Below are positions 44,430 through 60,597 of a DNA stretch of 64,000 nt, in pieces (within the stretch, counting starts at the first letter, position 1; every line of letters begins with the position of its first letter). The DNA is taken from contig NZ_CP121106.1 of NCBI RefSeq assembly GCF_029623755.1, positions 124,001 through 188,000 of the forward strand, read 5' to 3'. The notes beneath the pieces are model-generated. The model ran no database searches and was not told the origin of the DNA. It saw only the letters and a program-made list of their open reading frames with translations. The translations under genes and the position numbers were made by a program. The DNA comes from Altererythrobacter sp. CAU 1644. GTDB lineage: Bacteria; Pseudomonadota; Alphaproteobacteria; Sphingomonadales; Sphingomonadaceae.

Positions 44430-44463
44430 CAGCTCCCGCGCGGTAATGGCAGGCAAATGGCGG

Positions 44464-44492
44464 TGATGGATTGCCGATGGATTGCCGATGAT
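44464..44492 (+). promoter_or_regulatory. Direct-repeat operator candidate upstream of the first TonB receptor of the Slam locus
   Basis: TGATGGATTGCCGATGG is followed at once by a second ATTGCCGATG, so TTGCC recurs at 44471-44475 and 44482-44486, 11 bases apart. It lies 49-77 bases before the receptor ATG at 44541. A near match (TGATGGCTTGCCGATG then TTTGCC) occurs at 52209-52234 beside the lipoprotein gene. OmpR/PhoB-type winged helices typically bind direct repeats with this 10-11-base period, and two such regulators are encoded next door. Confidence 0.55.
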
Positions 44493-44540: not shown

Positions 44541-46595
44541 ATGGGCAAGGACCATGCCGCAACGATCCTGACGGGGCTTCTGGCCGCTTGCGGCGCAAGC
44601 GCGGCGCTCGCCCAGGAAGACACCTCTCCATCCTCGGAACCGATCATCGTCACCGGGGAACGGTGGCAGCGAACGCTCGCCGAAACCGCATCCAGTGTAT
44701 CGGTCACATCGGCCGAAGACCTCGCGCGCCAGCCCGATACCGACCGGCTCGACCAACTGCTCGACGCAACGCCCAACATCACGATCGGTTCGGGAGGTCT
44801 CGGGCCCGCGATCCGAGGTCTCGACACGACCGGGGTGTTGAACAACCTCCCTGCATTTCTCGGCGGCAACCGCCCACGGACCACGGTGACGGTGGACGGC
44901 CGCGCGATCACCTATGGGGAATTCGTGTTCGGAACCCAGCCGCTGTGGGACGTTGAGCGCGTCGAAGTGTTCCGCAGCCCGCAGACGACGACCCAGGGGC
45001 GCAATTCGATTGCCGGGGCGATCTTCCTCGAAACCCGCTCGCCCGAGTTCGACTGGGGCGGTGCCGCTCGGCTGATCGGCGGGAATTACGACACCCGCCA
45101 GGCGTCCGCCATGGCAACAGGCCCGCTGATCTCGGAACAGCTGGCCTTGCGTGTCGTTGCCGACCACCGTCGCAGCCGCCCGTCCAGCGAACTCACCACG
45201 CCCGATGTCGACATCGATCCCAATCGCGACAAATACGACCAGTTGCGCCTCAAGCTGCTGGCCCTGCCCGATGCCCTCCCCGGGTTGCGGCTCGAGACCT
45301 CGTACTGGATTGCAAGATCGCAGGCCCCGCAAACCGAAGGCGTCCGCATCCCTTTTCGCGAGCGACGCGATCCGCGCGCGCGTTACGGCATATTCCGGGC
45401 CGAGTCTGAGTCGGGGACCTTGCGGGCCTCCTGGGACATTTCCGCCGAGACAACCCTGCATTCGACCCTGACGGCAGGTGGCTCGACCTTGCAGCGCTTC
45501 GCCCCGTCCGGCTTCGGTGAAACGCTCACCAAGGCGCGTGATCGATCAGGCGAGTTGATCCTCAATCACGCTGCAGAGGGTTGGAAGGCCGTCGCCGGAG
45601 TCAGCGCATCGCGCAGCCGCATGCGGCAGACCATCGACCTCTCCTCCACGCCGTTCGGTGTGGGCGATTTCCGTGACCGGCAGGACAGCTTCGGCCTGTT
45701 CGGTGAGGGCGAAGCACAAATCGGCGAGCGTCTGTCCCTGATAGTCGGCGCGCGGTATCAAAGCGATCGCCAGGTCAGAAGCGGAACCCTGGGCCGCGTC
45801 GGCTCTCTCCAGGTGCTCGATTTCGATCGGACCTTCGAGTTCTTCCTGCCCAAGTTCTCGCTGTCCTTCGCATCCTCGCCCGATCTGACGCTGGGCATTC
45901 TCGTGCAGAAGGCGGCCAATCCCGGCGGCATCACGCTCACGCCGCCAAGCGGCCTCGATGCTTTCGAGGAAGAATCCCTGTGGGATTTCGAGCTCTTTGC
46001 CCGCGGTCGATTGGCTGACGGAAGGCTGCGCTATGCGGCCAATCTGTTTCGCTACGAGATGAAGGATGCGCAGCGTTCGGTGACCTTCGGCGTTCTCACC
46101 CCCGCCGGGCCGGTTTTCCTGTCGGAGATCGGCAATGCCCCGCGCGCATGGAGCCACGGAGCGGAGCTCGAACTACAATGGCAGGCAAGCAACCGGCTGA
46201 GCGTGAATGCCGGCCTGGGCTTGCTCGACACCCGCCTGACCCGGACGCCCAGCAGCGAAGATCCCTTGCTCGACAAGCAATTCCAGCGCTCGCCTCACTT
46301 CACGGCCTCGCTGGGCGTGGATTGGCGCCCTGCCCCCTCGCTCGCCATCGACCTCGGCTACCGCCACCGGACGGGCTACTACAGCGACGACGTCAACTCC
46401 CCCGAACTGAGGGTGGGATCGGCCAGCGTGTTCGACGCCCGGGTCAGTTGGGAGCGCGGGTCAACGCGGATCTTCGGATTCGTCCGCAATATGTTCGACA
46501 ATTTCTACCTGGTGGCCCGCTTCTCCGGACCCGATCCGCTCGCTACGGCGGGCGATCCCCGCGAATACGGCATCGGGATCGAGGCAAGGATATAG
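44541..46595 (+). CDS. TonB-dependent receptor of the Slam locus (first)
   Basis: A 684-residue outer-membrane receptor. TILTGLLAACGASAALAQ is a signal peptide ending AxA. The plug has EPIIVTGERWQRTLAETASSVSVTSAEDL (TonB-box-like IIVTGE) and DVERVEVFRSPQTTTQGRNSIAGAIFLET, a plug signature. The barrel ends GDPREYGIGIEARI, with terminal Ile where Phe is more usual. No cargo-specific motif is evident. The CadC-like regulator gene starts 2 bases after its stop, and a direct-repeat candidate lies upstream, so receptor and regulator probably share a transcript. Confidence 0.9.
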   Translation: MGKDHAATILTGLLAACGASAALAQEDTSPSSEPIIVTGERWQRTLAETASSVSVTSAEDLARQPDTDRLDQLLDATPNITIGSGGLGPAIRGLDTTGVLNNLPAFLGGNRPRTTVTVDGRAITYGEFVFGTQPLWDVERVEVFRSPQTTTQGRNSIAGAIFLETRSPEFDWGGAARLIGGNYDTRQASAMATGPLISEQLALRVVADHRRSRPSSELTTPDVDIDPNRDKYDQLRLKLLALPDALPGLRLETSYWIARSQAPQTEGVRIPFRERRDPRARYGIFRAESESGTLRASWDISAETTLHSTLTAGGSTLQRFAPSGFGETLTKARDRSGELILNHAAEGWKAVAGVSASRSRMRQTIDLSSTPFGVGDFRDRQDSFGLFGEGEAQIGERLSLIVGARYQSDRQVRSGTLGRVGSLQVLDFDRTFEFFLPKFSLSFASSPDLTLGILVQKAANPGGITLTPPSGLDAFEEESLWDFELFARGRLADGRLRYAANLFRYEMKDAQRSVTFGVLTPAGPVFLSEIGNAPRAWSHGAELELQWQASNRLSVNAGLGLLDTRLTRTPSSEDPLLDKQFQRSPHFTASLGVDWRPAPSLAIDLGYRHRTGYYSDDVNSPELRVGSASVFDARVSWERGSTRIFGFVRNMFDNFYLVARFSGPDPLATAGDPREYGIGIEARI

Positions 46596-46597
46596 CG

Positions 46598-48175
46598 ATG
46601 TCCGGCGACGTTGAATTCGGCCAGGATCCAGCTTCGCCGGCGCCAAGGCCGGGAAATGGCAAGGCCGACATCCATGAGACGCACGATCTGGCCAAGCGGC
46701 CTGACATTACGATCGGGGATACGCTGATCCGGCCATCCTTGCGGTTGATCGCAGGTCCGAACTCGAGTGTCAGCGTCGAACCGCGCGTGATGCAGGTCCT
46801 GCTCGCCCTGTACGATGCAGATGGAAAGGTCCTGAACCGCGAAGACCTGCTCGAACAATGCTGGGCCGGTGTGGTCGTGGGCGACGACGCTATCAACCGC
46901 GCGATCGCAGAGCTGCGCCGTGCCGTCCGAGAAACGAACGCCGATCTCGCGATCGAAACCATTTCTCGCGTCGGTTACCGGCTCGCCGCAAACACGATCC
47001 CCGACGCTTTGGACAGCAAATCGCGTCCTATCCGCGGTTTCGACATCGACCGACGCAATTACGTGCTCGGCGGAGCCGTCGCCGCCGTTGCGCTGGCCGG
47101 CGGCACGGTAGCGATATCGGGTTACCGGGAGAAGGCAGCTGTCGACCAATTGATCGAACGCGGCAAGATCCTCCAAGGATCGGGTGCGCCGGACGGCCGG
47201 GAGCGCGCCTTTGCCCTGTTTTCTGCTGCCGTCGAGCGCGCACCGAAACGTGCCGAGGCCTGGGGATGGCTCTCGACCGTCGCGCCGAATTACCAGCATT
47301 CGCGGTCGGCGGCGCTTCGCGCGCTCGATCTTGATCCCAAAGAACCCAATGCACGTGTCGTTCTTGCTTGGCAGAAGCTCGATCTCGAAGACTGGACCGT
47401 GTGGGAAGATTCCCTGCTCGAAGTGCTGGATGATGCCCCCGAGAATGCGCTCGCGCTCGGGTTCATCACGCTGTTCTACCAGGGGATGGGGCGGTGCAAG
47501 CTCTCGCTCCAAATGAATGAGCGCTCCCTTGCAGCCGAACCATTCAATCCCGGATTTCACATGCGGCGAGCGTTGAAGCACTGGATTTTCGGTCGGTTGG
47601 CCGAGGCCGACAAGGTCGCCGACAAGTCGATGCATTTGTGGCCGCGCAATCCCTTTACCTGGAATGCGCGCATGGTGATCTATGCCTTCACCGACCGGGC
47701 TCCGGCCGCGCTCACCCTGCTTGAGGATGAGGCCAGTCGGCCAAAGAAGCTGACACAACCGAATATCGAATCCTGGCGTGCGGCGCTTCGCGCCATTGAT
47801 AGCCGAAGCCGCAGCGAAATCGACAATGCGGTCAAGGTCTGCACGGCAGCCGCCCCTCTCGCTCCGGGTCTCGCGGCGAACGCGATCATGTTCTTCTCCC
47901 ATCTCGGAGAACTCGACTCGGCGTACCGCGTCGCCGAAGGGCTTTTCGAAGGCAAAGGCAATGTGGTCCAGCAAACTCGCGGAGTCGGCATCAGGGACAT
48001 CTACTCGGCCACCGGCTGGGGGCGCACGCAGTTCGTCTTCATCCCTGCAACCAACGCGTTCCGCGACGACGAACGATTTCCGGGGCTCTGCCGCCGGCTG
48101 GGGCTGGAAGCCTATTGGCGCAAGCGCGGCGCATGGCCGGACGAATTCGTGCGCGGAGCGCTTGTCAGTGCCTGA
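46598..48175 (+). CDS. Membrane-anchored winged-helix (CadC-like) regulator with TPR-like domain, copy 1
   Basis: A 525-residue protein. Residues 37-130 form an OmpR/PhoB-type winged helix with no receiver domain: SVEPRVMQVLLALYDADGKVLNREDLL then VVVGDDAINRAIAELRRAV and ISRVGYRLA. Residues about 154-175 (RNYVLGGAVAAVALAGGTVAISGY) are one membrane helix. The rest, outside the cytoplasm if ToxR/CadC-like, is helical with TPR-type periodicity. AAGGA lies 7 bases before ATG 46598, 2 bases after the receptor stop; a longer upstream frame inside the receptor is rejected. The next gene is a close paralogue. Confidence 0.85.
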   Translation: MSGDVEFGQDPASPAPRPGNGKADIHETHDLAKRPDITIGDTLIRPSLRLIAGPNSSVSVEPRVMQVLLALYDADGKVLNREDLLEQCWAGVVVGDDAINRAIAELRRAVRETNADLAIETISRVGYRLAANTIPDALDSKSRPIRGFDIDRRNYVLGGAVAAVALAGGTVAISGYREKAAVDQLIERGKILQGSGAPDGRERAFALFSAAVERAPKRAEAWGWLSTVAPNYQHSRSAALRALDLDPKEPNARVVLAWQKLDLEDWTVWEDSLLEVLDDAPENALALGFITLFYQGMGRCKLSLQMNERSLAAEPFNPGFHMRRALKHWIFGRLAEADKVADKSMHLWPRNPFTWNARMVIYAFTDRAPAALTLLEDEASRPKKLTQPNIESWRAALRAIDSRSRSEIDNAVKVCTAAAPLAPGLAANAIMFFSHLGELDSAYRVAEGLFEGKGNVVQQTRGVGIRDIYSATGWGRTQFVFIPATNAFRDDERFPGLCRRLGLEAYWRKRGAWPDEFVRGALVSA

Positions 48176-48223
48176 CCATACCGTCCGACTGCGGCGCGCA
48201 ATCGTGATTGCAGGAAAAACCCT

Positions 48224-49795
48224 ATGCTTCTAATGCCATGGCTCTCGCCGCGAGATTCTCGCCGGGAGACAAGCGACGGACGAACCTGCGTGAACGAATC
48301 ACTGGATCTGGCACGACGTGCCGACATCACGATCGGCAACGCTCTCGTCCAGCCATCGCTCCGCCTGATCACGGGCCCAGAATCGGAAGCCACCGTCGAA
48401 CCCCGCGTGATGCAGGTGCTCCTGGCCTTGCACGACGCCGAGGGGCGCGTGCTGAGCCGCGAGGACTTGCTCGAGATTTGCTGGCCTGGCGTGATCGTCG
48501 GTGACGATGCCATCAACCGGACCATCGCCGAAATTCGCCGGGTCGCCCGCGATACCGGTGCCGTGATCGTGATCGAGACCATCCCTCGGGTGGGTTATCG
48601 CCTCGCCTCACAGGAAGATGCGGCGGGCAAGGTCGGCAAGAGCGCCAAGGTGCGCGGACCCGCCTTGCCTCGGCGAAAGCTTGTTATCGGAGGACTGGCG
48701 ACAGCAGCCGCCATCGCGGGCGGTGGATATGGGCTGCTCCACTATCGCCGCGGAACGGCAATCGACGAATTGATCGAACGGGGCCGATTGGTCCAGGCGT
48801 CCGGGCGTCCCGACAGCAGGACGCAGGCTCAAGAAATCTTTCGCCAGGCCATTGCGATGGATCCGGAACGAGCCGATGCATGGGGTTGGCTGGCACGCGT
48901 TCTTGGTGACGATGCCGCAGCGCGCGAGGCGGCGCTCCATGCCATCGAGATCGATCCGCGCGAAGCCAACGCCCGGGTAGTGCTGATCAGCCAACGCAAG
49001 GACCTTCATTCCTGGACCGAATGGGAAGACGAACTTCTCGAAGTCCTGAAAGATGCACCGGACAACACTGCCGCACAGCGATCACTGTCTTTCTTCTACC
49101 AGGGGATGGGTCGCTGCAAGGATTCCTGGAGTGTCCAGGAGCAGACCCTCAAGCTCGAGCCGTTCAATCCCGCGAGCCATAACACGAGCGCCCTGAAACA
49201 CTGGATCTTCGGCAAGAACGGTGAGGCAGACAAAATTGCCGATCAGGCGCTTCGCCTGTGGCCACGCCATCCTTTGCTCTGGAACGCCCGGATGGTCATT
49301 TATGCGTTCACGAACCGGGCGCCTGCGGGGCTCGCGCTGCTCGACGACGTGCCCAATCGGCCGGCAAACCTGACTTCTGCCAGCATCGATTCCTGGCGCG
49401 CCGCCCTGGGGGCGATCGCCACGCGCTCCTCCCCCGATATCGCCCGCGCCTTGGAAGTCTGCACCGCGCAAGCCAAGCTCGCGCCAGGGCTGGCGGCTAA
49501 CGCAATCATGGCCTTCGCCTATCTGGGAGAGGTGGACGCGTCCTACCAGGTCGCTGAGGGCCTGTTCGAAGGGCGCGGGGCCGTCGTCCAGAAATCGCAC
49601 GGCAAGGGTATCGGCGATCTCTATTCGACCGCAGGCTGGGGGCGAACCCAAGTCATCTTCACACCCGCCGCCGTCGCCTTTCGCGAGGACGGGAGATTTT
49701 CCGATTTCTCCGAACGGCTGGGGCTGACGGCCTATTGGCGCGAGCGCGGAATCTGGCCGGATCCCTTCGTCAGGGGATCGCTCCGCACCAGCTGA
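48224..49795 (+). CDS. Membrane-anchored winged-helix (CadC-like) regulator with TPR-like domain, copy 2
   Basis: A 523-residue paralogue of the preceding gene, matching along its length: TVEPRVMQVLLALHDAEGRVLSREDLL, VIVGDDAINRTIAEIRRVA and IPRVGYRLA in the winged helix, KLVIGGLATAAAIAGGGYGLLHY as membrane helix, and shared blocks such as FFYQGMGRCK, LKHWIFGK and NARMVIYAFTNRAPAGLALL. Tandem duplication is clear. AGGA precedes ATG 48224 by 8 bases; a GTG at 48290 would remove 22 poorly conserved residues. It converges on the Slam-like gene with an 8-base gap. Confidence 0.85.
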   Translation: MLLMPWLSPRDSRRETSDGRTCVNESLDLARRADITIGNALVQPSLRLITGPESEATVEPRVMQVLLALHDAEGRVLSREDLLEICWPGVIVGDDAINRTIAEIRRVARDTGAVIVIETIPRVGYRLASQEDAAGKVGKSAKVRGPALPRRKLVIGGLATAAAIAGGGYGLLHYRRGTAIDELIERGRLVQASGRPDSRTQAQEIFRQAIAMDPERADAWGWLARVLGDDAAAREAALHAIEIDPREANARVVLISQRKDLHSWTEWEDELLEVLKDAPDNTAAQRSLSFFYQGMGRCKDSWSVQEQTLKLEPFNPASHNTSALKHWIFGKNGEADKIADQALRLWPRHPLLWNARMVIYAFTNRAPAGLALLDDVPNRPANLTSASIDSWRAALGAIATRSSPDIARALEVCTAQAKLAPGLAANAIMAFAYLGEVDASYQVAEGLFEGRGAVVQKSHGKGIGDLYSTAGWGRTQVIFTPAAVAFREDGRFSDFSERLGLTAYWRERGIWPDPFVRGSLRTS

Positions 49796-49803
49796 TGGTC
49801 GAT

Positions 49804-51129
49804 CTAGAAGGCCCGCGTCAGGCCAATCTCACCGCGCCACCTGTCGTAGCGATAGATTTCGATCGGGCTGGTGTTTTTCTCCCAGGTTAGCCGGAGCTGC
49901 GGCGCCCACCCCTTCCATTCGAACGTGCGCAATGTCGTTCCGACGGAAAGGCGGTAGAAGTCGTCCACCCGTCGCTTGGGATAGATTGCCAGCCGCTTGT
50001 CCGCCTCGAGATGCTGGTATGATGCGGATGCAAACAGCGTCGTTCGCCCGAACTCGCGCCAACCGGTGACCGATAATTGCCCGCTGGCAGTCGAATAGGC
50101 CGGATCGCGCGCCATCTGCCGCGCCGCACCAAGCGTAAGATTGATGCCCGAGCGGCTGCTCAAGGCCCGCTCGTAGCTCGCGAACCCCGATATTCCATGC
50201 GCATCCTGAAGGTCGTTGATACGGTAATTCGTGCGCGCATAGCCCGCCCCGGCCCGCAGGTGTGAACGCCGGTCCAGCGGACGCTGCCATTGCAGGTTCG
50301 CATCCAGCGCGTCGTAGAAGCGCTCCCCGCCGAACCACCGCCTTTGCCCCCCAGCGAGGAGGCTGGCCCGCCCTCCCCCGAGCGCAAATTCGGGGCCGAT
50401 CGAGGCGATAGCCAGCAGATCGTTGAAGTCGCCGCGACGGTAGAAATCACCCGATAGGCCGGCGCGAGTGATCAGCGAGGTAAGCTGCGAAAGCGGCTTG
50501 CGATAATAGACCTCCCCGCGCAGCGACAGGCCGACGCCCGAGGACTGGCGCGCCGCATCCTCTAGGTCGAAGTCACCAATCACCGTACCCAACGTGTCCG
50601 ATCGCGTCGCGCGGTTGACGTTACTATCGGGAGCGATGGCGACCTGCACGCTCGCGCCGAAGGGCTTGCGTTCGCGCAGCGCAGCCGAAAACCGGTCGAC
50701 GAGGCGCGCCACCTCAGGTGGCAGCCCGCCGGCCTGCGCCTCGCGCAGGGTCCGCCGCGAAGCCTCGATTTGCCCCATTTCGGCCTGCACCCGCGCAAGC
50801 TCCAGCCTGGCCCTCTGTGCACCGGGATCCTCGTCAATGATCGATCGCAGCAAGCTGCCCGCCCGGTCCCAGCGGTGATCGCGCATCGCCAGCATCGCGA
50901 GGCGGAAACGCGCCTCGTTTCGGACCGGTAAGTTGGGATCCTGGAGCAATGCCTCGAGGATCTGCACGGCAAGCGCCTCTTCCTTGTTGGCGAGCGCCCT
51001 TGCTGCAAATTCCAGCATCTGTTCCCCCGTCGCCTCGATCTCGGCCCGCGTTCCGACCGGCAAGGTTTCGCCTGCGGGCGCACGTTCGGTCGATGGCTGG
51101 GCAAGCGCCACAAGCGCGACCAGCAACAC
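49804..51129 (-). CDS. Slam-like surface lipoprotein assembly modifier (DUF560 type)
   Basis: About 441 residues in two parts. Residues about 30-155 are helical with TPR features (EALAVQILEALLQDPNLPVRNEARFRLAML, LARVQAEMGQIEASRRTLREA). From about 160 on, FGASVQVAIAPDSNVNRATRSDT begins a beta barrel of alternating strands ending YDRWRGEIGLTRAF with terminal Phe. This N-terminal TPR plus barrel, with the NxN-type entry strand, is the Slam layout; Slam moves lipoproteins to the cell surface. It starts at GTG 51129, one codon past the lipoprotein stop and in the same frame, with AAGGA in the lipoprotein end. The N-terminus lacks basic residues but reads as a short signal. Alternative: another TPR-barrel exporter. 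Confidence 0.75.
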   Translation of the reverse strand: MLLVALVALAQPSTERAPAGETLPVGTRAEIEATGEQMLEFAARALANKEEALAVQILEALLQDPNLPVRNEARFRLAMLAMRDHRWDRAGSLLRSIIDEDPGAQRARLELARVQAEMGQIEASRRTLREAQAGGLPPEVARLVDRFSAALRERKPFGASVQVAIAPDSNVNRATRSDTLGTVIGDFDLEDAARQSSGVGLSLRGEVYYRKPLSQLTSLITRAGLSGDFYRRGDFNDLLAIASIGPEFALGGGRASLLAGGQRRWFGGERFYDALDANLQWQRPLDRRSHLRAGAGYARTNYRINDLQDAHGISGFASYERALSSRSGINLTLGAARQMARDPAYSTASGQLSVTGWREFGRTTLFASASYQHLEADKRLAIYPKRRVDDFYRLSVGTTLRTFEWKGWAPQLRLTWEKNTSPIEIYRYDRWRGEIGLTRAF

Positions 51130-51132
51130 GGC

Positions 51133-52149
51133 TCAGTCCTTCTTGCCGATCCAGACGCCGGTCATCGTTCCCTGCGTGCCGTCCCGGGTAAACGGGGCCG
51201 AAAACCGACCGATCACTTCCTGTGCATTGGGTCCGGTCAGGCTGCCGTCGAACCACGATGCGTCGAGGAGTACGCCATCCTTGCTGAACTTGCCGGAGTA
51301 ATTCGCGCTGCCAACGGAATAGACCGTCTGCGCGAAATCATAGACCCCGTAATCATAGTCGAGATCGGTGTACCAGCCGTTGGTGTAGAGAAACGGATTC
51401 ATGCTGCCCGAAAGCGTGCCGGAGCCAAAATCGAAGGCCAGTTTAACCGTGCCGGAGATTTCGAATGCATCCACCGGCGTCTCACCAAAGATTTCGGCCC
51501 GGTAGGTCGCGGTCCCGCTCCTAGGAATCGCATCAGCAGCAGGTTGATAGCCGTAAACGAACCAGCCGTAGATCTTGGTATGGGTACCGTCGGCGTTGCC
51601 TTCGGATTTGTACCACCTCCCGTAGTGCGAGTAGGTGTAGGGATAGCGTTCGCGAAACGGCACCGGCATCCATACCGAACCCACGGTTTCTCCGTTTGAG
51701 GAGATGCGGTGGAAGGTAGAGCTCGCTATCTGGCCTGCCGATCCGTTCAAGCCGAGATCGGTCAGTTCTCCCGCTTCCCCGGTTGGCAGCTTGATCTTGT
51801 AGATCTGGCGGGCTTCATCGAAATCCAGCTGGATGGTCGCGCCTTGCTCGCTCGGCACCGACTTGATGAATTTCGCGAGATCCTTGCTACCTGAGACATT
51901 GCTCTCGCTCGACAGCGTGTCAGTCTCATAAACCGTGTAGGCGACCGTCTGCGCATTCGTCCCGATAGTGAGAGTCTCGGGCTTGATCACCTGGGCCGGC
52001 GTCGGCGTAGGGGTCGGAGCCGGCGCAGGACTGGGTGGCGGAGGGGGGAGCGGCGTCGAATTTGGACTCGCCCCCCCTCCTCCGCCGCATCCTGCAAGCG
52101 CGAGCAGCAGCACCAGTGTGGCGCTGGCGACGGTAATGGATTCCCTCAT
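51133..52149 (-). CDS. Surface lipoprotein with TbpB-like barrel, presumed Slam substrate
   Basis: A 338-residue lipoprotein. MRESITVASATLVLLLALAGC ends in an LAGC lipobox with Cys21, followed by GGGGG and a Pro-rich linker. The C-terminus has FDFGSGTLSGSMNPFL, YSGKFSKDGVLLDASWFDGSLTGPNAQEVIGRFSAPF and TMTGVWIGKKD, the small beta-barrel pattern (G-x-F-x-G-P-x-A-x-E) of TbpB/HpuA-like Slam substrates. GGAGGG precedes ATG 52149; an in-frame ATG 20 codons upstream would displace the signal peptide and is rejected. The Slam-like gene follows after TGA and one codon. Ligand unknown. Confidence 0.85.
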   Translation of the reverse strand: MRESITVASATLVLLLALAGCGGGGGASPNSTPLPPPPPSPAPAPTPTPTPAQVIKPETLTIGTNAQTVAYTVYETDTLSSESNVSGSKDLAKFIKSVPSEQGATIQLDFDEARQIYKIKLPTGEAGELTDLGLNGSAGQIASSTFHRISSNGETVGSVWMPVPFRERYPYTYSHYGRWYKSEGNADGTHTKIYGWFVYGYQPAADAIPRSGTATYRAEIFGETPVDAFEISGTVKLAFDFGSGTLSGSMNPFLYTNGWYTDLDYDYGVYDFAQTVYSVGSANYSGKFSKDGVLLDASWFDGSLTGPNAQEVIGRFSAPFTRDGTQGTMTGVWIGKKD

Positions 52150-52477
52150 GCAACCCTCCGCATTGATTTGGTGATTGCGAAGCTGGCACTGCACCTCCCT
52201 CCGATCCATGATGGCTTGCCGATGTTTGCCTGATCTGAGGTAATCGATTGCTTAGGACCGAGGCGTGCAGGTCGCGCCCCCTTCGATCAACCGAAGCTGA
52301 GCTGACCGGGGCTCGCGATAGTGGAATTAAGGCTCTTGCGAGGAATCGCCGGGCACAATCTTCACCCTTCGAGCTTGGACTGAGCAGAACCGTCTGTATG
52401 ATCCGTACCCGCAGCCGGCGAATGTCCCCCGACTTCCGCCGGCTTGATTGTGCGAATGGAAGGAATAGTCGAGCCAG
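52150..52477. other. Divergent intergenic region between the surface lipoprotein and second TonB receptor
   Basis: This 328-base gap holds no convincing gene. The direct-repeat candidate operator lies at 52209-52234, nearer the lipoprotein. The right half, up to the receptor start at 52478, is GC-rich with no clear promoter hexamers or terminators. Both flanking genes read outward, so their promoters must lie here. Confidence 0.6.
52209..52234 (+). promoter_or_regulatory. Direct-repeat operator candidate upstream of the lipoprotein-Slam pair
   Basis: TGATGGCTTGCCGATG followed by TTTGCCTGAT gives TTGCC at 52216-52220 and 52226-52230, 10 bases apart. Aligned with 44464-44492 it differs by two substitutions and small gaps. 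It is 60-85 bases from the lipoprotein ATG (on the opposite strand) and about 245 bases from the second receptor ATG. The shared motif suggests coordinated control of the locus. Confidence 0.55.
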
Positions 52478-54511
52478 ATGTTGAAACGCGTATCGCCGAT
52501 GATCGTGGCAGGGACGATGGCCAACGCCCTGCTGCCGCGACCGGCCCTGGCTCAAGATGGTGATGAGGATGGCGAACCGACGCGGGTGATCGTCGTTACC
52601 GGCGAAGGGCTTGGAGAAACCCCGGCCTCGCCCGCCTATGACACCCAGACCATCGATCGCGAGCAATTGCTATCCGCACCATCGGGCAGGATCGAAGACG
52701 CGCTCACCTCGGTCGCGGGGTTCCAGCAGTTCCGCCGTTCGGACAGCCGCTCGGCCAACCCGTCGGCGCAAGGGGCCACACTGCGCGCGCTGGGCGGTAA
52801 TGCCACGAGCCGCGCGCTTGTCCTGCTCGACGGCGTACCGATGACCGATCCATTTTTCGGTTATGTTCCCTTCTCGGCGCTTGCGGCCGAACGGCTCGCG
52901 CATGTGCGCGTGACCCGCGGCGGTGGTTCCGGACCGTTTGGTGCCGGCGCCCTGGCCGGGACCATCGAGTTGACGAGCGCCGATGGCGCAACGTTGGGCA
53001 ATTTCAGTGGCATGCTCGTCGCGAATGATCGCGGCGATACCGAAGCGAGCGCGACCCTTTCTTCACAACTCGGCACGGGCTTCGGTTCGGTGTCGGGCCG
53101 CTGGGATCGCGGCAAGGGATTCTGGACGACGCCGGCCTCCGATCGCGTTCCGGCCAGCGCACGGGCAAGCTTCGACGGCTACTCGGTCCAGGTGCGCGGC
53201 GTCGCCCCGCTGACCGAGATGATCGAATTGCAGGCACGCGGCCTCGTCTACCGCGAGGAACGCACTCTGCGTTTTGACGGCGCCGAAAGCAGCATGGAGG
53301 GTCAGGACGCGAGCCTGCGAGTGGTAGGCCGAGGCGAGTGGCAGTTCGACCTGCTTGGCTACGTCCAGGCGCGCAACTTCACCAATGTCGTGATTTCCTC
53401 GACCCGCTTCGTACCCGTGCTCGATCAGCGCAATACGCCCGCCACAGGCCTTGGCGGGAAATTCGAACTTCGTCCCCCGACCGGCCGGCGCAACGTGCTG
53501 CGGCTGGGGATCGACTACCGCAAGTCCGATGGCGAGCTCTTCGAAATCGCCCAGAGCGCCTTTTCCGGCGCGGTCACCGCCAGACGAAACGCGGGCGGGA
53601 CGAATACGGACCTTGGCATCTTTGCCGAGAACGACCTCACCCTGGGTGCCATCACCCTGACGGCGGGCGCCCGGGTCGATCGATTCACCATTCGGGACGG
53701 ATTCTTCATCGAGCGAAATGGTGCGGGCTTGCTAGTCGACAACCAGACCTATCCCGACCGGTCAGGCTGGGAAGCCTCATTCCGCGGTGGCGCGCTCTAC
53801 CGAGTGAACGATGCGCTTAGCTTGCGCGCCGCAGCCTATAGCGGCCTTCGTCTTCCCACCCTGAACGAGCTCTACCGTCCCTTCGTCGTTTTCCCGATCG
53901 TCACCCAGGCGAACGCTGCGCTCGACAACGAACGTCTCGAAGGGTTCGAAGCGGGGATCGACTGGGCGCCTGCGGACGCCATCTCACTTGCGCTGACCGC
54001 CTTCGACAACCGGGTGAAGAACGCGATTGCCAATGTCACGATCGGCCCGAACCTGCGCCAGCGGCGCAATATCGACGCGATCCATTCGCGGGGTATCGAA
54101 GCAAGCGCGGCGCTGAAGTTCGGCGCGGTTAGCCTGGACGGCGCCATCGCCTTTACCGATGCCGAAGCGGAGGGTTCGGGACCTGCCGCCGCGCTCGACG
54201 CGAACCGCCCCTCGCAAACTCCGAAGTGGGTTGCGGGAACTACGCTGGCCTATCGACCGGCGGACGATTGGCTGTTCTCGACGACGCTGCGGCATGTCGG
54301 TGCGCAGTTCGAGGACGACCTGGAAACCAATGTACTGCCAGCCGCAACCACGCTTGACGCCTTTGCCCAAATCCCGGTCCTCGATGGCATCAGGTTGATT
54401 TTGCGCGGGGAAAACCTGACCGATGAAACCATTGTGACGCGCAACCAGGGCGGTTCGATCGACCTTGGCACGCCTCGAACGCTTTGGGCCGGGTTCAAGG
54501 TCGGCCTCTAG
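52478..54511 (+). CDS. TonB-dependent receptor of the Slam locus (second)
   Basis: A 677-residue outer-membrane receptor. MLKRVSPMIVAGTMANALLPRPALAQ is a signal peptide, and RVIVVTGEGLGETPASPAYDTQTI a TonB-box region. Plug features include ATLRALGGNATSRALVLLDGVPMTDPFFGYVPF and HVRVTRGGGSGPFGAGALAGTIEL. YSGLRLPTLNELYRPF, NERLEGFEAGIDW and a C-terminal GENLTDETIV with LWAGFKVGL follow BtuB/CirA-like receptors. It shows no close resemblance to the first receptor beyond the fold. Its 328-base upstream gap is shared with the lipoprotein gene, suggesting that it could import what the lipoprotein captures. Confidence 0.92.
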   Translation: MLKRVSPMIVAGTMANALLPRPALAQDGDEDGEPTRVIVVTGEGLGETPASPAYDTQTIDREQLLSAPSGRIEDALTSVAGFQQFRRSDSRSANPSAQGATLRALGGNATSRALVLLDGVPMTDPFFGYVPFSALAAERLAHVRVTRGGGSGPFGAGALAGTIELTSADGATLGNFSGMLVANDRGDTEASATLSSQLGTGFGSVSGRWDRGKGFWTTPASDRVPASARASFDGYSVQVRGVAPLTEMIELQARGLVYREERTLRFDGAESSMEGQDASLRVVGRGEWQFDLLGYVQARNFTNVVISSTRFVPVLDQRNTPATGLGGKFELRPPTGRRNVLRLGIDYRKSDGELFEIAQSAFSGAVTARRNAGGTNTDLGIFAENDLTLGAITLTAGARVDRFTIRDGFFIERNGAGLLVDNQTYPDRSGWEASFRGGALYRVNDALSLRAAAYSGLRLPTLNELYRPFVVFPIVTQANAALDNERLEGFEAGIDWAPADAISLALTAFDNRVKNAIANVTIGPNLRQRRNIDAIHSRGIEASAALKFGAVSLDGAIAFTDAEAEGSGPAAALDANRPSQTPKWVAGTTLAYRPADDWLFSTTLRHVGAQFEDDLETNVLPAATTLDAFAQIPVLDGIRLILRGENLTDETIVTRNQGGSIDLGTPRTLWAGFKVGL

Positions 54512-54649: not shown

Positions 54650-55414
54650 ATGGACAATCTATTTGGCCTCGAAGGCAAGGTCGCGGTGGTCACCGGCGCG
54701 GGGCGAGGTATCGGAGAAGGCATTGCCACCCTGTTGGCCGAGGCCGGCGCGGATGTTGTGTGTGCAGCGCGCAGCACCGACCAGATCGAACGTACGGCAA
54801 AGGCAATCAACGGAGCGAACTCGGGCGGAAGGGCGATATTCCAGCAAACCGACGTTTCGAGCGACACTGACATGGAAGCGCTCGCGCAGCGGGCGATCGA
54901 CGAATTCGGCCGGCTTGATATCTGGGTGAACAATGCTGGGGGTTCGCTGGTATCTGCCCCCCTGACCCAACTACCCGTCGAAGAGTGGGAGAAAACCCTC
55001 GCGGTAAACCTCGGCTCGGTCTTCTACAGCGTCAGAGCGGCGGTGAAACGCATGACGAGCGGCGGTGCGATCGTGAACATCTCGTCGCTGGCCGGGCAGG
55101 ATCCGTTCCCCGGCAGCGGCCATTACAGCGCGGCCAAGGCCGGAGTGATCATGCTCACCAAGACGCTCGCGCTCGAGCTGGGGGAGCAAGGCATCAGGGT
55201 GAATGCGATCTTGCCTGGCTTCGTCCCGACCGACACGGTGAAACAGGCGCTATCGATGAAGGATGAGGATTTCGGTCCCTTGCTCGAGCAGCTCAACCTG
55301 CCCGCGGGCCGGCTAGGCACGCCCCAGGACATCGCGGCCTGCGTCCTTTATCTCGTAAGCCCGGCCAGCGAGTGGATGACCGGGCAGTCCATCAGGCTTG
55401 CCGGCACGGTCTAG
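54650..55414 (+). CDS. SDR family oxidoreductase (first of the catabolic cluster)
   Basis: A 254-residue classical SDR. VAVVTGAGRGIGEGIATLLAEAGADVVCAARS is the NAD(P) site, VNNAGGS the NAG motif, and VNISSLAGQDPFPGSGHYSAAKAG the Ser-Tyr-Lys active site. LPGFVPTDTVKQAL and DIAACVLYLVSPASEWMTGQSI complete a FabG-like C-terminus. An Arg within the coenzyme loop (CAARS) makes NADP use plausible. A GST gene and another SDR gene follow on the same strand after 50 bases and then immediately, forming a likely operon. Substrate not identifiable. Confidence 0.9.
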   Translation: MDNLFGLEGKVAVVTGAGRGIGEGIATLLAEAGADVVCAARSTDQIERTAKAINGANSGGRAIFQQTDVSSDTDMEALAQRAIDEFGRLDIWVNNAGGSLVSAPLTQLPVEEWEKTLAVNLGSVFYSVRAAVKRMTSGGAIVNISSLAGQDPFPGSGHYSAAKAGVIMLTKTLALELGEQGIRVNAILPGFVPTDTVKQALSMKDEDFGPLLEQLNLPAGRLGTPQDIAACVLYLVSPASEWMTGQSIRLAGTV

Positions 55415-55464
55415 GCAACAATTCGCGTGCTTCCCACGGCCGCCATCTTGAAAGGAGAAACGCG

Positions 55465-56109
55465 ATGAAGCTCCATTCCAGTCTCGGACCCAATCCGCGC
55501 CTCGTGCGCATGTTCCTGGTCGAGAAGGGTATCGAGGAAGGGACGGGTTTCGAGCGGGTCCATTACGACATCATCACGGGCGAGAACCGCCAGAGCGCGG
55601 ACTACGTCGCCAAGAATCCGCTCGGGACCATGCCTGCCCTCGAACTCGACGACGGGACCGTGCTGACCGAGAGTTGGCCGATTTGCGAATATCTGGAAGA
55701 GTTGCACCCGGAGCCAAACCTGTTCGGAAAGACGCCGCTGGAGCGCGCCGAGGTCCGCAAGTGGGTCCGTCTGTTCGATCAGGAGGTCGTGGTGCCGATG
55801 ACGATGGGCTTTCGCGCCGGGGCAGGACGGCCCATGTTCGAACCGCGCATGGCCGTTGTCAGCGCCGAGGCCGGTGCCGAACTATCGGCCATGTCGGACG
55901 ACAAATGGCGCTATTTCGACAGCGTGCTGGGCGACAGCAATCACCTCGCCTTGGGGCGGTTCACCTTCGCTGACCTGATCATGTTCGCTTTCGCCAATTT
56001 CGGCTTCACGGTCGGGTGGAAGCTCCCCGAAGGGACCGACAATCTCGCGCGTTTCGTTGCCACTCATAACGAGCGCGACAGCGCAGCGATCTGGCAACAG
56101 GCCGAATAG
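55465..56109 (+). CDS. Glutathione S-transferase family protein
   Basis: A 214-residue GST. KLHSSLGPNPRLVRMFLVEKGIEE is the thioredoxin-like start with Ser at the usual activating position, NPLGTMPALELDDGTVLTESWPICEYLEE the cis-Pro and GSH-glutamyl contact region, and GRFTFADLIMFAFANFG the C-terminal N-capping box. AAAGGAG precedes ATG 55465, which fixes the start over a longer frame. The stop overlaps the next SDR's GTG by one base. In the catabolic cluster it could remove glutathione from, or add it to, an intermediate; no etherase-specific motif was recognised. Confidence 0.9.
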   Translation: MKLHSSLGPNPRLVRMFLVEKGIEEGTGFERVHYDIITGENRQSADYVAKNPLGTMPALELDDGTVLTESWPICEYLEELHPEPNLFGKTPLERAEVRKWVRLFDQEVVVPMTMGFRAGAGRPMFEPRMAVVSAEAGAELSAMSDDKWRYFDSVLGDSNHLALGRFTFADLIMFAFANFGFTVGWKLPEGTDNLARFVATHNERDSAAIWQQAE

Positions 56110-56876
56110 TGCCGGATCTCACCGGCAAGGTGGCCATCGTCACCGGCTGCGCCAGCGGGATCGGCGCTGCCACGGTGCGGCGGCTGGTGGCCGACGGAGC
56201 GCAGGTTCTCGGGACCGATATCGACGCCCAAGGTGGTGCCGCGCTCTGCCAGGAAATCGGCACGCGGTTTGCCCAGCAGGACGTCAGCGACGAGCAGCGC
56301 TGGGACGAGGTCGTCGCGGAGGCGGTCGAAGCCTTCGGTAGGCTCGATATCCTCGTCAACAATGCGGGGAAAGTGTCGGGCCGTTCGATCGGAGACGTCG
56401 ACATGGCGGCCTGGTCGCAGGTGATCGGGGTCAACCTTACCGGCACGATGATGGGTTGCCGCGCGGCGATACGCGCGATGACGAAGAACCCCGGCGGTGC
56501 CAGCGGCGCGATCGTCAATATCGCCTCGACCACGGCAATCACCCCCTTGCCGACCGATGTCGGCTATTCCGCCAGCAAGGCGGGCGTGCGCGCGCTGACC
56601 AAGTCGGTAGCCACCTGGTGCGCGCAGCAAGGTAACGCGATCCGCTGCAACACCGTGATCCCGGGCGCAACCGATACGGGCATCCTCGCCGAGGCGGAAA
56701 AGGCAACGCCGGGCCTCAAGCAGGTAGTTGCGGCGACCTCGCCTTTGAAAAGACTCGCCGATCCGGCCGAGACCGCCGCCGCGATCGCTTTCCTTGCGTC
56801 AGACGAATGCCCCTACATGACCGGGGCCGACATGCTGGTCGATGGCGGGATGATGTCGCTGCATCCCGGGTTCTAG
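56109..56876 (+). CDS. SDR family oxidoreductase (second of the catabolic cluster)
   Basis: A 255-residue classical SDR: KVAIVTGCASGIGAATVRRLVADGAQVLGTDID (Asp after the second strand, suggesting NAD preference), VNNAGKVSG, IVNIASTTAITPLPTDVGYSASKAG with the Ser-Tyr-Lys set, and CNTVIPGATDTGIL. The C-terminus has the AIAFLASDECPYMTGADMLVDGG motif. GTG 56109 shares its first base with the GST stop, so the pair is coupled. It converges on the MFS gene, 9 bases away. Confidence 0.9.
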   Translation: MPDLTGKVAIVTGCASGIGAATVRRLVADGAQVLGTDIDAQGGAALCQEIGTRFAQQDVSDEQRWDEVVAEAVEAFGRLDILVNNAGKVSGRSIGDVDMAAWSQVIGVNLTGTMMGCRAAIRAMTKNPGGASGAIVNIASTTAITPLPTDVGYSASKAGVRALTKSVATWCAQQGNAIRCNTVIPGATDTGILAEAEKATPGLKQVVAATSPLKRLADPAETAAAIAFLASDECPYMTGADMLVDGGMMSLHPGF

Positions 56877-56885
56877 CGCACACTG

Positions 56886-58199
56886 CTAGGCGCGACCCAT
56901 GCGCTCCAGATAGCCGCTGCTGCGCATCTGCGCCGCGGTCCAGGCAAACACCCCCATCGCCAGCACACCTGAGACGAGACAAACGGCGAAGACCGAAATG
57001 GTCAGCGAATAGTCGCCCTGGCTCGGCTGCAGCCAGTCGCTGACCCAGCCGATCACCGCGAGGCCGAGCGCCTGCCCCACCAGATTGTTGAAGAACAAGG
57101 CGATGGCGACGGCGAAGCCCCTTTGCGATGGCTCGACGGTGTTCTGGATACCCGAAAGGATCGGCGCCTGGCTCGCAACATAGATGCCGTAGGCGAGCGC
57201 AAAGAAGCCGAGGAAGACCCAGAACTGGTCCGAGGCAAGGCTCGCCGCCAGCGGCACGCAACAAAGCAGGCTGACGAGGCCGGGTAGCCACGCCCGCCAG
57301 CGCTCGTCGCGCCGGGTCAGCCAGTCGGTCAGGAAGCCGCCCAGCACCGGGCCGGGAATGCCGCCCAGCAGGAATGCCAGCCCGAGATAGACCGCGACGT
57401 CGCCGGTCGAGACGTCGAAATTCCGCATCATCACTGCGGCCATCCAGAACGCCAGCGCATATCCGATCATGATCTGCACCGCCCAGCCGATCGCGATGCC
57501 GAAAAACACGCGGTTGGTCAGCAACGACGCGGCGGTATCGCGCAGCGGCATCTGCTCGATGCGAGAACCGACCGGCGCATAGCGTCCACGCCGCGGTTCG
57601 ATCACCGTGAAGTAGAGCAAGGCACCGATGAATACGCCCGGCAGGCCCATCAGCACGAAGGCCATGCGCCACCCGTATTCCTGGGCCAGCAGGCCGCCCG
57701 CCATCAACCCGGTCACCGTGCCAAGCGTTGCGCCCCAGGTGAGGAACCCCATCGCCCTGGCAAGTTCCTCACGTTTGAAATAGTCGGCGATCAGCGATTG
57801 CGACGCCGGACCGCTGCAGCCCTCGCCCACCCCGACCCCGGTGCGTGCAAGGAAGAGCGAGAAGAAGCCCACCGCCGCGCCGCACAGCGCAGTCATCACG
57901 CTCCAGAAACTGATCGCGCCGGCGATAATGTTCTTGCGGATCGAACGATCGGCCAGCCGTGCGGCGGGAAAGCCGATCAGGACGTAGGTGGCGGTAAAGG
58001 CCAGCCCGCCCAGCAGGCCAAGCTCGAAGTCGCTGAAGGAAAACTCCGCCTTGATGTCTTCGAGCAGGATCGAGAACACCAGCCGGTCGGCGACGCTGAA
58101 CAGGCTGGTAAGCGTGAGCAGGCCGAGCACGTACCAGCGATAGCGCCCGGCGGGCGCACAGTCCCGATCAGGCTGGGTCTCAGTGATGGGGTCTGGCAT
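56886..58199 (-). CDS. MFS transporter
   Basis: A 437-residue inner-membrane transporter with about 12 helices. RLVFSILLEDIKAEFSFSDFELGLLGGLAFTATYVLIGFPAARLADRSIRKNII holds the loop 2-3 signature G-x-x-x-D-R-x-x-R-K, and LARTGVGVGEGCSGPASQSLIADYF is the conserved motif after TM4. The family resembles the sphingolipid/spinster and hexuronate-like MFS groups found near aromatic or steroid catabolic genes. ATG 58199 gives MPDPITETQ; it overlaps the SDR stop region by 20 bases, so the two are coupled. Substrate unknown. Confidence 0.9.
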   Translation of the reverse strand: MPDPITETQPDRDCAPAGRYRWYVLGLLTLTSLFSVADRLVFSILLEDIKAEFSFSDFELGLLGGLAFTATYVLIGFPAARLADRSIRKNIIAGAISFWSVMTALCGAAVGFFSLFLARTGVGVGEGCSGPASQSLIADYFKREELARAMGFLTWGATLGTVTGLMAGGLLAQEYGWRMAFVLMGLPGVFIGALLYFTVIEPRRGRYAPVGSRIEQMPLRDTAASLLTNRVFFGIAIGWAVQIMIGYALAFWMAAVMMRNFDVSTGDVAVYLGLAFLLGGIPGPVLGGFLTDWLTRRDERWRAWLPGLVSLLCCVPLAASLASDQFWVFLGFFALAYGIYVASQAPILSGIQNTVEPSQRGFAVAIALFFNNLVGQALGLAVIGWVSDWLQPSQGDYSLTISVFAVCLVSGVLAMGVFAWTAAQMRSSGYLERMGRA

Positions 58200-58947
58200 C
58201 GAGGCCGTTATCGACCGGGATGACGATCCCATTGATGAAACGCGAATCGTCGCTGGCGAGGTACAGCATCGCATTGGCGACATCGCGCGGCGCGCCGAGC
58301 GAATCCGCCGGTAGCGGGCCGTCGGGGATTTCCATCAGTTCCTCGCCCGCACGCCCGCTGATGTCACGCACCATCGGCGTTTCAATGCCCCCGGGCGCGA
58401 TCGCATTGCAGCGGATCCCATAGCCCTGGTCCTGGCAGTGCATGGCAATCGAGCGGGTCATCGCGCGGATGCCGCCCTTGGCCGCGGTATAGGCAACGAT
58501 ATTGCCATAGCCCATCAGCGCCGCGGTCGAGGCCATGTTGATGATCGAGGCACCGCCGCCCCCTCGGCCCTTCATCAGCGGAATGCCGTATTTGCAGCCG
58601 AAGAAGGTGCCCATGACATGGATGTCGAGATGCAGGCGAAAATTGTCGGCCGAACATTCCTCGACGTTCTCGAAGATGACATTGCCGGCATTGTTGACGA
58701 GGATGTCTAGACCGCCGTGGCGCTCTTCGATGGCCTTGTAGACTTCCTTCCACTGGCTTTCGCTGGTGACGTCGAGCGCCATCGCATCTCCACCAACCGC
58801 GTCGGCGACCTTGTGCGCCTGCTCGACTTCGCGGTCGGTCACGATGACCCGCGCACCCTCGGCGGCAAGCAGTTCGCAGTCAGCCTTGCCCAGACCCATC
58901 GCGCCCCCTGTGACCAGCGCGATCTTGCCTTCGACCCTTCCGCCCAT
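58180..58947 (-). CDS. SDR family oxidoreductase (third of the catabolic cluster)
   Basis: A 255-residue classical SDR. KIALVTGGAMGLGKADCELLAAEGARVIVTDRE shows an Asp before the strand end, typical of NAD use. VNNAGNVIFENVEEC, NMASTAALMGYGNIVAYTAAKGG (Ser/Tyr/Lys) and CNAIAPGGIETPMV follow, ending DSRFINGIVIPVDNG. ATG 58947 has GGGAGA upstream; a start 8 codons earlier is possible. It is divergent from the Rieske oxygenase gene at 59113 and overlaps the MFS gene, so control from the same 165-base gap is likely. Confidence 0.9.
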   Translation of the reverse strand: MGGRVEGKIALVTGGAMGLGKADCELLAAEGARVIVTDREVEQAHKVADAVGGDAMALDVTSESQWKEVYKAIEERHGGLDILVNNAGNVIFENVEECSADNFRLHLDIHVMGTFFGCKYGIPLMKGRGGGGASIINMASTAALMGYGNIVAYTAAKGGIRAMTRSIAMHCQDQGYGIRCNAIAPGGIETPMVRDISGRAGEELMEIPDGPLPADSLGAPRDVANAMLYLASDDSRFINGIVIPVDNGLDARPHH

Positions 58948-59112
58948 AGATGTCTCCCGTTCTCTCTCCACCTATCAGACTATCGGCCATCGGCGGCTTC
59001 ACCACTGTCGAAAGCGATGAGAGCTTGGCGTGGCCAACCCCGCGGCGATGCACGAAAATGTCAGTCGCCAAGCACGCCTGCGGGTTTAGCTTGCGGAACA
59101 GGGAGAGGTGCA

Positions 59113-60414
59113 ATGCTGGAACCGGCTGAGGTCGAAAGGATCAAGGCCCTGATGGAATGGGAAGCCGGGCGCGATGCACCGCCCGAGGGATTCCCCACGC
59201 TGCCCGACATGCCTGCGGCGCGCTACACCAGCCCCGAATACTACGCGCTCGAGCAGGAGCACATCTTCCGTAAGAGCTGGCTGTTCGCGGGGCATCTCGA
59301 CGAAATACCCGAGCCGGGATGCTACATGCGCTGGCACAACGCGGGCGACCCGATCGTGATCGTGCATGGCATGGATGGCGTGGTGCGCGCCTTCTACAAC
59401 ACGTGCCGACATCGCGGTGCACCCGTCGTGACCGAAGATCGGGGCAAGTCGAGCCGACTGATGTGCGGCTATCACAACTGGACCTACAAGACCGACGGAA
59501 CCCTGGTGGGGGTGCCCGAGCGACAGGATTTCCCACCCGATTTCGACATGAGCTGCCGCGGACTGCTGCCAGTCCGGTGCGATATGTTCGGCAAGGTCAT
59601 TTTCGTCAATTTCGATCCCGATGCGCCGAGCCTGCTCGATTGGCTGGGGCCGATCGCGCGGGAATGGGATGAATTCGCCTTCGATCGCATCCGGCTCGCG
59701 GCGCGCCATTCGTTCGAACTCAACTGCAACTGGAAAGTCGCGATGGAGGCTAACATGGAGGTCTACCATGTGCCCTTCATCCATCCGACCACCGTTGCGC
59801 CGCTGGTAGACAGCAAGCGCAACCTCAACACCATGTATCCGGGCGGTCATGCGCGCATGATCGCGCCGCCTCCACGCCAGACGGACCGCGAACATGTTCG
59901 TGCCATCGACAGCCCGCCGGAATGGCAGCAGATCGAAACCGTCGGCGAACTGGGGCGCAGTTGCACGCAAAGCTACACGCTGTTTCCCAACTGGGTCTCG
60001 CCGCTGTCGAACTACTTCGTGCCGCCGCTGGTATTCTGGCCGACATCGCTCACCACCACCCGGCTCGAACTCGTCACCATGGCGCTCGATTGGGGCGACG
60101 GCCCCGCGCCGGACCTGTGGACCGTGCCCGAAGATAGCCAGCCGAACGGGCGGCAGATGAGCCCGATCATCCTCGAGGACACGCAATTCGGCGAGGCAAT
60201 CCAGCAGTCGATGCAAAGCGCTGCCTTCCGGAGCGTCCCGCTTTCGTACCAGGAGGCGCGCATCTACAGCTTCCACCAGGCCTGCGACCGGATGATCGGA
60301 ATCGACAATGTGCCCGAAGAATTGCGCATCGAGCAGGTGATCGGAGAGGACTGGGTCTGGCCCAACGATCCGCGCACCAGGCAGATGCTGGAAGAGCGGC
60401 AAGCCGCCGAATGA
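59113..60414 (+). CDS. Rieske non-haem iron oxygenase, large subunit (first)
   Basis: A 433-residue aromatic-ring or O-demethylating oxygenase subunit. CRHRG (Cys98, His100) and CGYHNW (Cys118, His121) bind the 2Fe-2S Rieske cluster. NWKVAMEANMEVYHVPFIHP is the catalytic helix, with His219 and His224 as iron ligands and Glu216 nearby. GGGAGAGGTGCA precedes ATG 59113; a long upstream extension overlaps the divergent SDR leader and is rejected. No ferredoxin, reductase or small-subunit gene is nearby, so electrons must come from elsewhere. Substrate unknown. Confidence 0.92.
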   Translation: MLEPAEVERIKALMEWEAGRDAPPEGFPTLPDMPAARYTSPEYYALEQEHIFRKSWLFAGHLDEIPEPGCYMRWHNAGDPIVIVHGMDGVVRAFYNTCRHRGAPVVTEDRGKSSRLMCGYHNWTYKTDGTLVGVPERQDFPPDFDMSCRGLLPVRCDMFGKVIFVNFDPDAPSLLDWLGPIAREWDEFAFDRIRLAARHSFELNCNWKVAMEANMEVYHVPFIHPTTVAPLVDSKRNLNTMYPGGHARMIAPPPRQTDREHVRAIDSPPEWQQIETVGELGRSCTQSYTLFPNWVSPLSNYFVPPLVFWPTSLTTTRLELVTMALDWGDGPAPDLWTVPEDSQPNGRQMSPIILEDTQFGEAIQQSMQSAAFRSVPLSYQEARIYSFHQACDRMIGIDNVPEELRIEQVIGEDWVWPNDPRTRQMLEERQAAE

Positions 60415-60597
60415 CGTTACGGCCCGCAGCGTCTGTGGCCAATATGTCGCATGGCCGCGAACCGCCTAGCGCTTTTGCTAGATGAGTGCCGAGGGGCCTC
60501 ACCATAACATTGCACGATGGCCTGGGATTGTCTTCCCCGGCCTAAGGGACGACCGGCACGGGAGAGCAACGACCGGCCGCTTTGGGAGAGAGCGACT

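Follow-up and report, generated by a model that had tools for sequence, protein, structure and literature searches.

A Slam cassette and its probable regulator in a sphingomonad genome

The window analysed here is a stretch of 64,000 nucleotides from the genome of Altererythrobacter sp. CAU 1644 (contig NZ_CP121106.1, positions 124,001 to 188,000 of the forward strand). An earlier note had described positions 44541..54511 of the window as a Slam-type surface lipoprotein locus in a sphingomonad-type host; the locus is real, and the assignment of the host is supported. It encodes a putatively membrane-anchored regulator (in two copies, RegA and RegB), a TonB-dependent receptor (TBDR1), a surface lipoprotein assembly modifier (Slam) and a candidate surface lipoprotein, four families that recur together at related loci. 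We hold with moderate confidence that they form a self-regulated, apparently mobile four-gene cassette for capture and uptake, under its own ToxR-like regulator.

Related loci were collected by a Slam profile search of the named genomes, which gave 80 loci, and by a regulator profile search of 347 genomes of the order, with matches in 37; 54 of the latter loci, none of them in the genome of the window, were read. The results of both searches, together with the window and L013, were pooled into a set of 22 cassette loci. L136–L139 coincide with L028, L039, L025 and L093 and were excluded from the 22-locus, tree and operator counts; L140, a near copy of L022, was kept in the first two and excluded from the last. 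The regulator is present at all 22 loci, a receptor of the same cluster as TBDR1 at 21, Slam at 18 and the lipoprotein at 17. By a stricter test, the TBDR1 family stands beside the regulator at 20/22 loci, and Slam is present at 19/22 if L145 is counted. No further gene family occurs in at least 5 of the 22 loci, and the next commonest is found in 4. Thus, the cassette is compact and its surroundings are variable, and the module, consisting of regulator, TBDR1, Slam and lipoprotein, is smaller than the earlier note had claimed.

The association is seen from both searches. A regulator homologue is present at 11 of the 80 Slam loci, nine of which also encode a full-length TBDR1 homologue; of the other two, L083 shows a partial match and L026 lacks one. 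Among the loci from the regulator search, the TBDR1 family occurs in 13 of the 17 best-ranked, 10 of these 13 with Slam, and neither family is found in the remaining 37. The regulator gene abuts the 3′ end of the TBDR1 gene, co-directional or tail to tail, at all 20 loci that hold both. The features of the window locus are as follows.

44461..44491, + strand: operator array of tandem 11-bp repeats, with two exact TGCCGATG units at 44472 and 44483 and a degenerate unit at 44461
44541..46595, + strand: TBDR1, TonB-dependent receptor of 684 residues (Pfam Plug 1.4e-15, barrel 3.3e-29)
46598..48175, + strand: RegA, winged helix, predicted twin-arginine membrane helix and TPR, 525 residues (Trans_reg_C 1.3e-11, structure model, conserved arginine pair)
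48224..49795, + strand: RegB, paralogue of RegA (Trans_reg_C 1.8e-9)
49804..51129, − strand: Slam (type 11 secretion system, T11SS) outer-membrane protein of 441 residues, GTG start (SlipAM 56.9 bits, tree)
51133..52149, − strand: surface lipoprotein candidate of 338 residues, lipobox Cys21 (handle and C-terminal barrel of TbpB type)
52217..52224, + strand: single operator unit (half-site) with an exact TGCCGATG sequence, 68 bp ahead of the lipoprotein start codon (ATG) and on the strand opposite to that gene
52478..54511, + strand: TBDR2, a core TonB-dependent receptor that adjoins the cassette and is no conserved member of it

Slam and its cargo

The Slam identity proposed earlier is borne out by the SlipAM barrel domain (PF04575), which scores 56.9 bits against a cut-off of 22, and by an N-terminal TPR region (TPR_19, 35.6 bits, cut-off 25); the Slam-specific TPR model PF24575 reaches 22.2 bits, compared to its cut-off of 35.2. 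It is the only Slam of its genome. Within the genus, any Slam match is found in 5/37 genomes, and in four of these it lies above the cut-off.

Slam in a free-living sphingomonad is no surprise, and the protein itself is not new. A 2021 survey in mBio (PMC8406197) sets apart, as subcluster 1C, a group of Slams “largely from environmentally isolated Sphingomonadaceae”, a 2025 survey (PMC12282271) describes a cargo, termed “Sphingomonas surface protein”, that combines Pro/Thr repeats and several barrels, and Hooda 2017 (PMC5449769) already reported Slams in free-living bacteria. NCBI also names several of the relatives “surface lipoprotein assembly modifier”. The view that Slams are known mainly from Neisseria, Moraxella and Acinetobacter is therefore not supported. 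According to PMC12282271, all experimentally verified Slam/T11SS systems come from the animal-associated cluster 1, and the neighbours of its marine cluster 3 include the transcription factors DicA and a cold shock protein. The word “regulator” is absent from the main texts of PMC8406197 and PMC12282271, and no regulator of a sphingomonad Slam is described among the matches listed from the open-licence literature, supplements excluded.

A maximum-likelihood tree of 92 Slams places all 19 Slams of regulator loci on one side of a single branch (support 99/89), which was recovered in 98% of 200 bootstrap trees. None of 500 label shuffles gave as few changes of the trait (shuffle mean 17.4). The set was partly chosen by the trait: 11 of the 19 come from the Slam-only search, two are those of the window and L013, and six stem from the regulator search. 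The independent part of the result is the fall of these last six into the same clade. The bootstrap had not settled (0.983), L012, L017, L016 and L145 have long branches, and L100, with a short Slam, was left out. A monophyletic Slam subtype tied to a regulator looks new.

Two Slam loci of congeners have other settings. In G004 (L012:9403-16000), the surroundings of the PF04575 match include a TonB receptor and a gene of the FecR family (PF04773, G004:C2:484540); this regulatory setting differs from that of the cassette, and the branch of L012 in the Slam tree is very long. In G019 (L014:6528-14742), Slam adjoins a lipoprotein-like frame of 849 residues, which the window lipoprotein matches twice, and also a protein that by eye looks similar to a TIR domain at its start.

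The window lipoprotein begins with a lipobox (LALAGC, Cys21), and the TbpB/HpuA-type fold predicted for it is borne out by a handle followed by an eight-stranded barrel. Homologues of the lipoprotein, such as P0036, carry PF01298. At regulator loci the cargo is short: 12 of 14 frames have 319–394 residues and two have 504 and 506, compared to 566–1028 residues for 54 of 64 frames at other Slam loci, the remaining 10 having 301–376 (79 of the 80 Slam loci were used, as L045 gave no Slam frame). At L027:6896-9929, three lipoprotein-like frames stand in a row ahead of Slam. Three cassettes hold an extra PD40 β-propeller protein (L013:11810, L024:6711 and L141:9258; Pfam on the L013 copy), which lies between regulator or receptor and lipoprotein and looks secreted by eye.

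The cassette resembles the TbpB-TbpA and HpuA-HpuB systems with Slam in that a lipoprotein of TbpB/HpuA fold, a TonB receptor and Slam are encoded together. Unlike these, it shows no sign of a host-protein ligand. TBDR1 consists of a plug and a barrel, with an additional barrel model below its cut-off, and it is not among the matches of the TbpA-type model TIGR01776. The receptors of solved structure closest to it in sequence are Cir (receptor of colicin I) and FyuA (receptor of pesticin), which leans towards an iron carrier as ligand; an iron carrier or haem is the most likely ligand, a weakly supported assignment. The likeness to subcluster 1C and the “Sphingomonas surface protein” systems (TXISS) lies in the PF04575 family, an adjoining barrel lipoprotein, environmental sphingomonad hosts and a nearby TonB receptor. 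Unlike them, the cassette has short cargo, a fixed TBDR1 family, a dedicated regulator and an operator.

A putative membrane-anchored regulator with a conserved twin arginine

RegA and RegB have an N-terminal winged helix of OmpR type (44.8 and 38 bits, cut-off 26.2), which supports the earlier classification as membrane-anchored regulators of CadC/ToxR type. Hydropathy shows one hydrophobic stretch, which is a long helix in the structure model. Their description as dedicated to the locus is backed by gene neighbourhood, the Slam tree and the DNA sites. The tandem arrangement is not supported as a trait of the system: a single regulator is found at 20 of 22 cassette loci, the exceptions being the window, with its tandem pair, and L083, where two copies lie apart. 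As RegA and RegB are 57% identical, RegB is probably a local tandem duplicate.

The most conserved feature of the region around the membrane helix is a pair of arginines before it, encoded at 47051-47056 in RegA and 48671-48676 in RegB. R154 is kept in 133/135 homologues and R155 in 135/135, with no lysine. Among 34 representatives below 60% identity the counts are 33/34 and 34/34, and these two are the sole columns that reach at least 97% between positions 131 and 223. The pair opens a weakly hydrophobic helix in 119 of 120 database homologues. The mean hydropathy of this helix, 1.79, compares with 1.2 for FecR and 2.63 for E. coli CadC. The strict twin-arginine motif gave 57 matches, two of which (L156 and L177) lie inside the winged helix, leaving 55/66. 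A TatC gene is present in the genome. The near-invariance of the pair suggests, by analogy, that the regulator is inserted through the twin-arginine translocation (Tat) pathway.

This design is reminiscent of E. coli FecR, the Tat-dependent regulator of the FecA receptor, whose cytoplasmic domain, internal twin-arginine helix and periplasmic domain match the layout predicted here, and whose gene likewise lies beside that of a TonB receptor. Unlike FecR, the regulator has no FecR domain (PF04773 matches neither RegA nor RegB at E values up to 0.1), and it has a DNA-binding domain of its own rather than a sigma-factor partner. No STN signalling domain was matched in TBDR1 by a Pfam scan; as the receptor shows plug and barrel alone, FecR-type signalling through an STN domain was rejected. 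From other ToxR/CadC regulators it differs in the near-invariant twin arginine, the low hydropathy of the helix and the TPR sensor, as well as in its 11-bp tandem operator and its tie to a Slam-TBDR cassette. The twin-arginine design of this Slam-cassette regulator looks new; among the matches listed from the open-licence literature, no paper joins Tat with regulators of ToxR/CadC type.

Tandem 11-bp repeats at cassette promoters

An 11-bp period is known for winged helices of PhoB/OmpR type. A first scan for spaced word pairs in cassette promoters found 12 loci, barely above the 9–10 found in six shuffles. It hinted at direct repeats, and a clear signal emerged only when these were taken as a tandem repeat of 11 bp. 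The element is TGCCGATGA repeated at this period, with the consensus ATgnTtTGCCGATGaTTTGCCGATGat from one site of each of 16 loci. The array of the window lies 69 bp upstream of the TBDR1 ATG.

In cassette non-coding DNA (44,134 bp, 21 loci), 14 sites have at most two mismatches of 18, compared to none in 394,605 bp elsewhere at the same loci; with at most three mismatches, the counts are 19 and 4. Sites are present at 16/21 loci with at most three mismatches and at 17/21 with at most four. Since the consensus was derived from the same loci as were counted, the weight rests on the DNA elsewhere and on the controls of genome, period, shuffling and polarity. In the 3.24-Mb genome, TGCCGATGNNNTGCCGATG (16 fixed bases) has one exact match, the TBDR1 array. 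Of 17 genome sites with at most two mismatches, this exact one alone lies at promoters of the locus, and a site with one mismatch (window 28036) falls inside open frames. At 69 other Slam loci (1,311,634 bp), five sites have at most three mismatches, one of them in the 56,337 bp of Slam or lipoprotein promoters. Among periods of 9–23 other than 11, no site has at most two mismatches, save one at period 22, and shuffling the core 200 times gave 0.055 sites on average and never more than 4, compared to the 14 observed. Polarity is fixed: the sites lie on the strand of TBDR1 (6/6) and of the regulator (6/6) and opposite to the lipoprotein (7/7) and Slam (2/2). The operator repeats of the cassette promoters look new.

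Seven of 41 other regulator loci, which have no TBDR1, also show a site with at most four mismatches near the regulator. Similar arrays near regulators of the same family, for example at L158, L159, L160 and L187, tie the element to this family. At L187:7073-7115, L158:8004-8045 and L160:7911-7963, the arrays lie near winged-helix regulator genes with neither Slam nor TBDR1 close by, so the pairing of regulator and operator probably extends beyond the Slam cassette.

Proposed mechanism and alternatives

In the proposed mechanism, the C-terminal barrel of the lipoprotein would be its Slam-targeting part, and Slam would pass the protein through the outer membrane. The lipoprotein would stay lipid-anchored outside, where its more variable N-terminal part would catch a ligand and hand it to TBDR1 for TonB-driven import. 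The regulator would be a one-component transcription factor whose winged helix, in the cytoplasm, is joined through a flexible linker to a single membrane helix of weak hydrophobicity, with a TPR sensor on the periplasmic side. Its helix, opened by the twin arginine, is probably inserted by Tat, like that of FecR; the TPR domain may sense the ligand or the state of the envelope, and the winged helix would bind the 11-bp repeats that precede TBDR1 and the lipoprotein-Slam operon, switching both. What looks new is the composition of the cassette, the type of regulator and the operator; the display system is of a known kind. A fuller proposition, which we regard as evenly balanced, is that sphingomonads possess Tat-inserted one-component factors (winged helix, twin-arginine helix, TPR) that directly control a monophyletic Slam subtype through tandem 11-bp operators. 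They would be, after FecR, a second, non-homologous kind of Tat-inserted regulator at TonB-receptor loci, and display and uptake would be joined in one self-regulated mobile cassette.

Slam/T11SS proteins of environmental bacteria are numerous, and a cassette with receptor, cargo, regulator and recognisable DNA switch offers a route to the inducing ligand, and hence the function, of one environmental subtype. Tat insertion of the regulator, if real, would extend the short list of known single-span Tat membrane proteins to transcription factors that bind DNA; it would also mean that regulators at TonB-receptor loci came to use Tat on two separate occasions.

Several findings weigh against this picture. 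The window lipoprotein falls below every curated cut-off (PF01298, 19.7 bits against 26; NF041636, 39.5 against 80). In the window it is preceded by the half-site alone, with degenerate neighbours and no full repeat pair; at L145, the site precedes the second lipoprotein frame. Five of 21 loci (L083, L097, L144, L147 and L152) have no operator at up to three mismatches, and all of these except L147 have none at up to four. No haem, iron or siderophore gene recurs among the 22 cassette loci. Three of the 22 (L144, L147 and L149) retain regulator and TBDR1 with no Slam in the stretch read, which would agree with a lipoprotein that does not feed TBDR1 and is an adhesin, a shield or another surface factor co-regulated with an independent receptor; published T11SS cargo comprises adhesins as well as haemophores (PMC12282271). 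We consider this unlikely, as TBDR1, lipoprotein and Slam recur jointly with no other shared gene, operator sites precede TBDR1 as well as the lipoprotein/Slam genes, and published Slam cargo often has a TonB receptor as its partner (such a receptor was encoded in 120 of 185 Slam gene clusters; PMC5449769). The earlier note had gone further and counted two TonB receptors, with TBDR2 as a second uptake partner of the lipoprotein. TBDR1 does belong to the cassette. TBDR2 is divergent from the lipoprotein, the two starts lying 329 bp apart, and a 72% identical TBDR2 likewise adjoins the cassette in Tsuneonella rigui (L039/L137). However, 35 of 37 genomes of the genus, that of the window included, encode TBDR2, far beyond the distribution of Slam given above, as do 11/11 genomes examined of the genus of G298 and 49/61 overall. 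In 18 of the 20 congeneric loci read, its neighbours encode an FMO-like monooxygenase, a MoCF-domain protein, an acyl-CoA dehydrogenase and a thiolase, and no close TBDR2 occurs at the other cassette loci. TBDR2 is thus part of the core genome and was rejected as a cassette member; that both receptors serve the lipoprotein is very improbable.

The Tat step meets a stronger competitor. The twin arginine could be a mere topology signal under the positive-inside rule, in an ordinary relative of ToxR/CadC inserted by the general secretory and signal recognition particle (Sec/SRP) route, with no role for Tat. Basic residues commonly precede membrane helices, and arginine pairs lie near the helix in 5/7 distant winged-helix regulators with other sensors (L184-L189), a further point against the proposal, although six of these seven miss the strict motif; thus, the pair alone is no proof of Tat. 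Five of 30 loci from the FecR model showed the strict motif as well, a weak control, as many of the picked frames are clearly not FecR. Against a topology signal stand the invariance of the pair with no lysine across the 135 homologues, its persistence in the divergent set, where no other column nearby is as conserved, and a helix hydropathy near that of FecR. We regard this alternative as a tentative one, less probable than the proposed mechanism.

Surroundings of the second receptor

TBDR2 may have been recruited twice beside the cassette. Insertion of the cassette into an empty site between cysQ and TBDR2 is unsupported: where both are on the same contig (for example in G002 and G012), they are far apart, and of the 17 window proteins searched, none but TBDR2 gave a match in the 20 TBDR2 neighbourhoods. 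TIGR01776 scores 22.4 bits on TBDR2, compared to a cut-off of 468.8. The conserved block around TBDR2 (L213-L232) hints at a lipid- or steroid-like substrate. On the 3′ side of TBDR2, the window holds a catabolic-looking cluster (54650-63183) that encodes short-chain dehydrogenases and an MFS transporter as well as another TonB receptor (60517), and an oxygenase-like frame was noted by eye near 59100.

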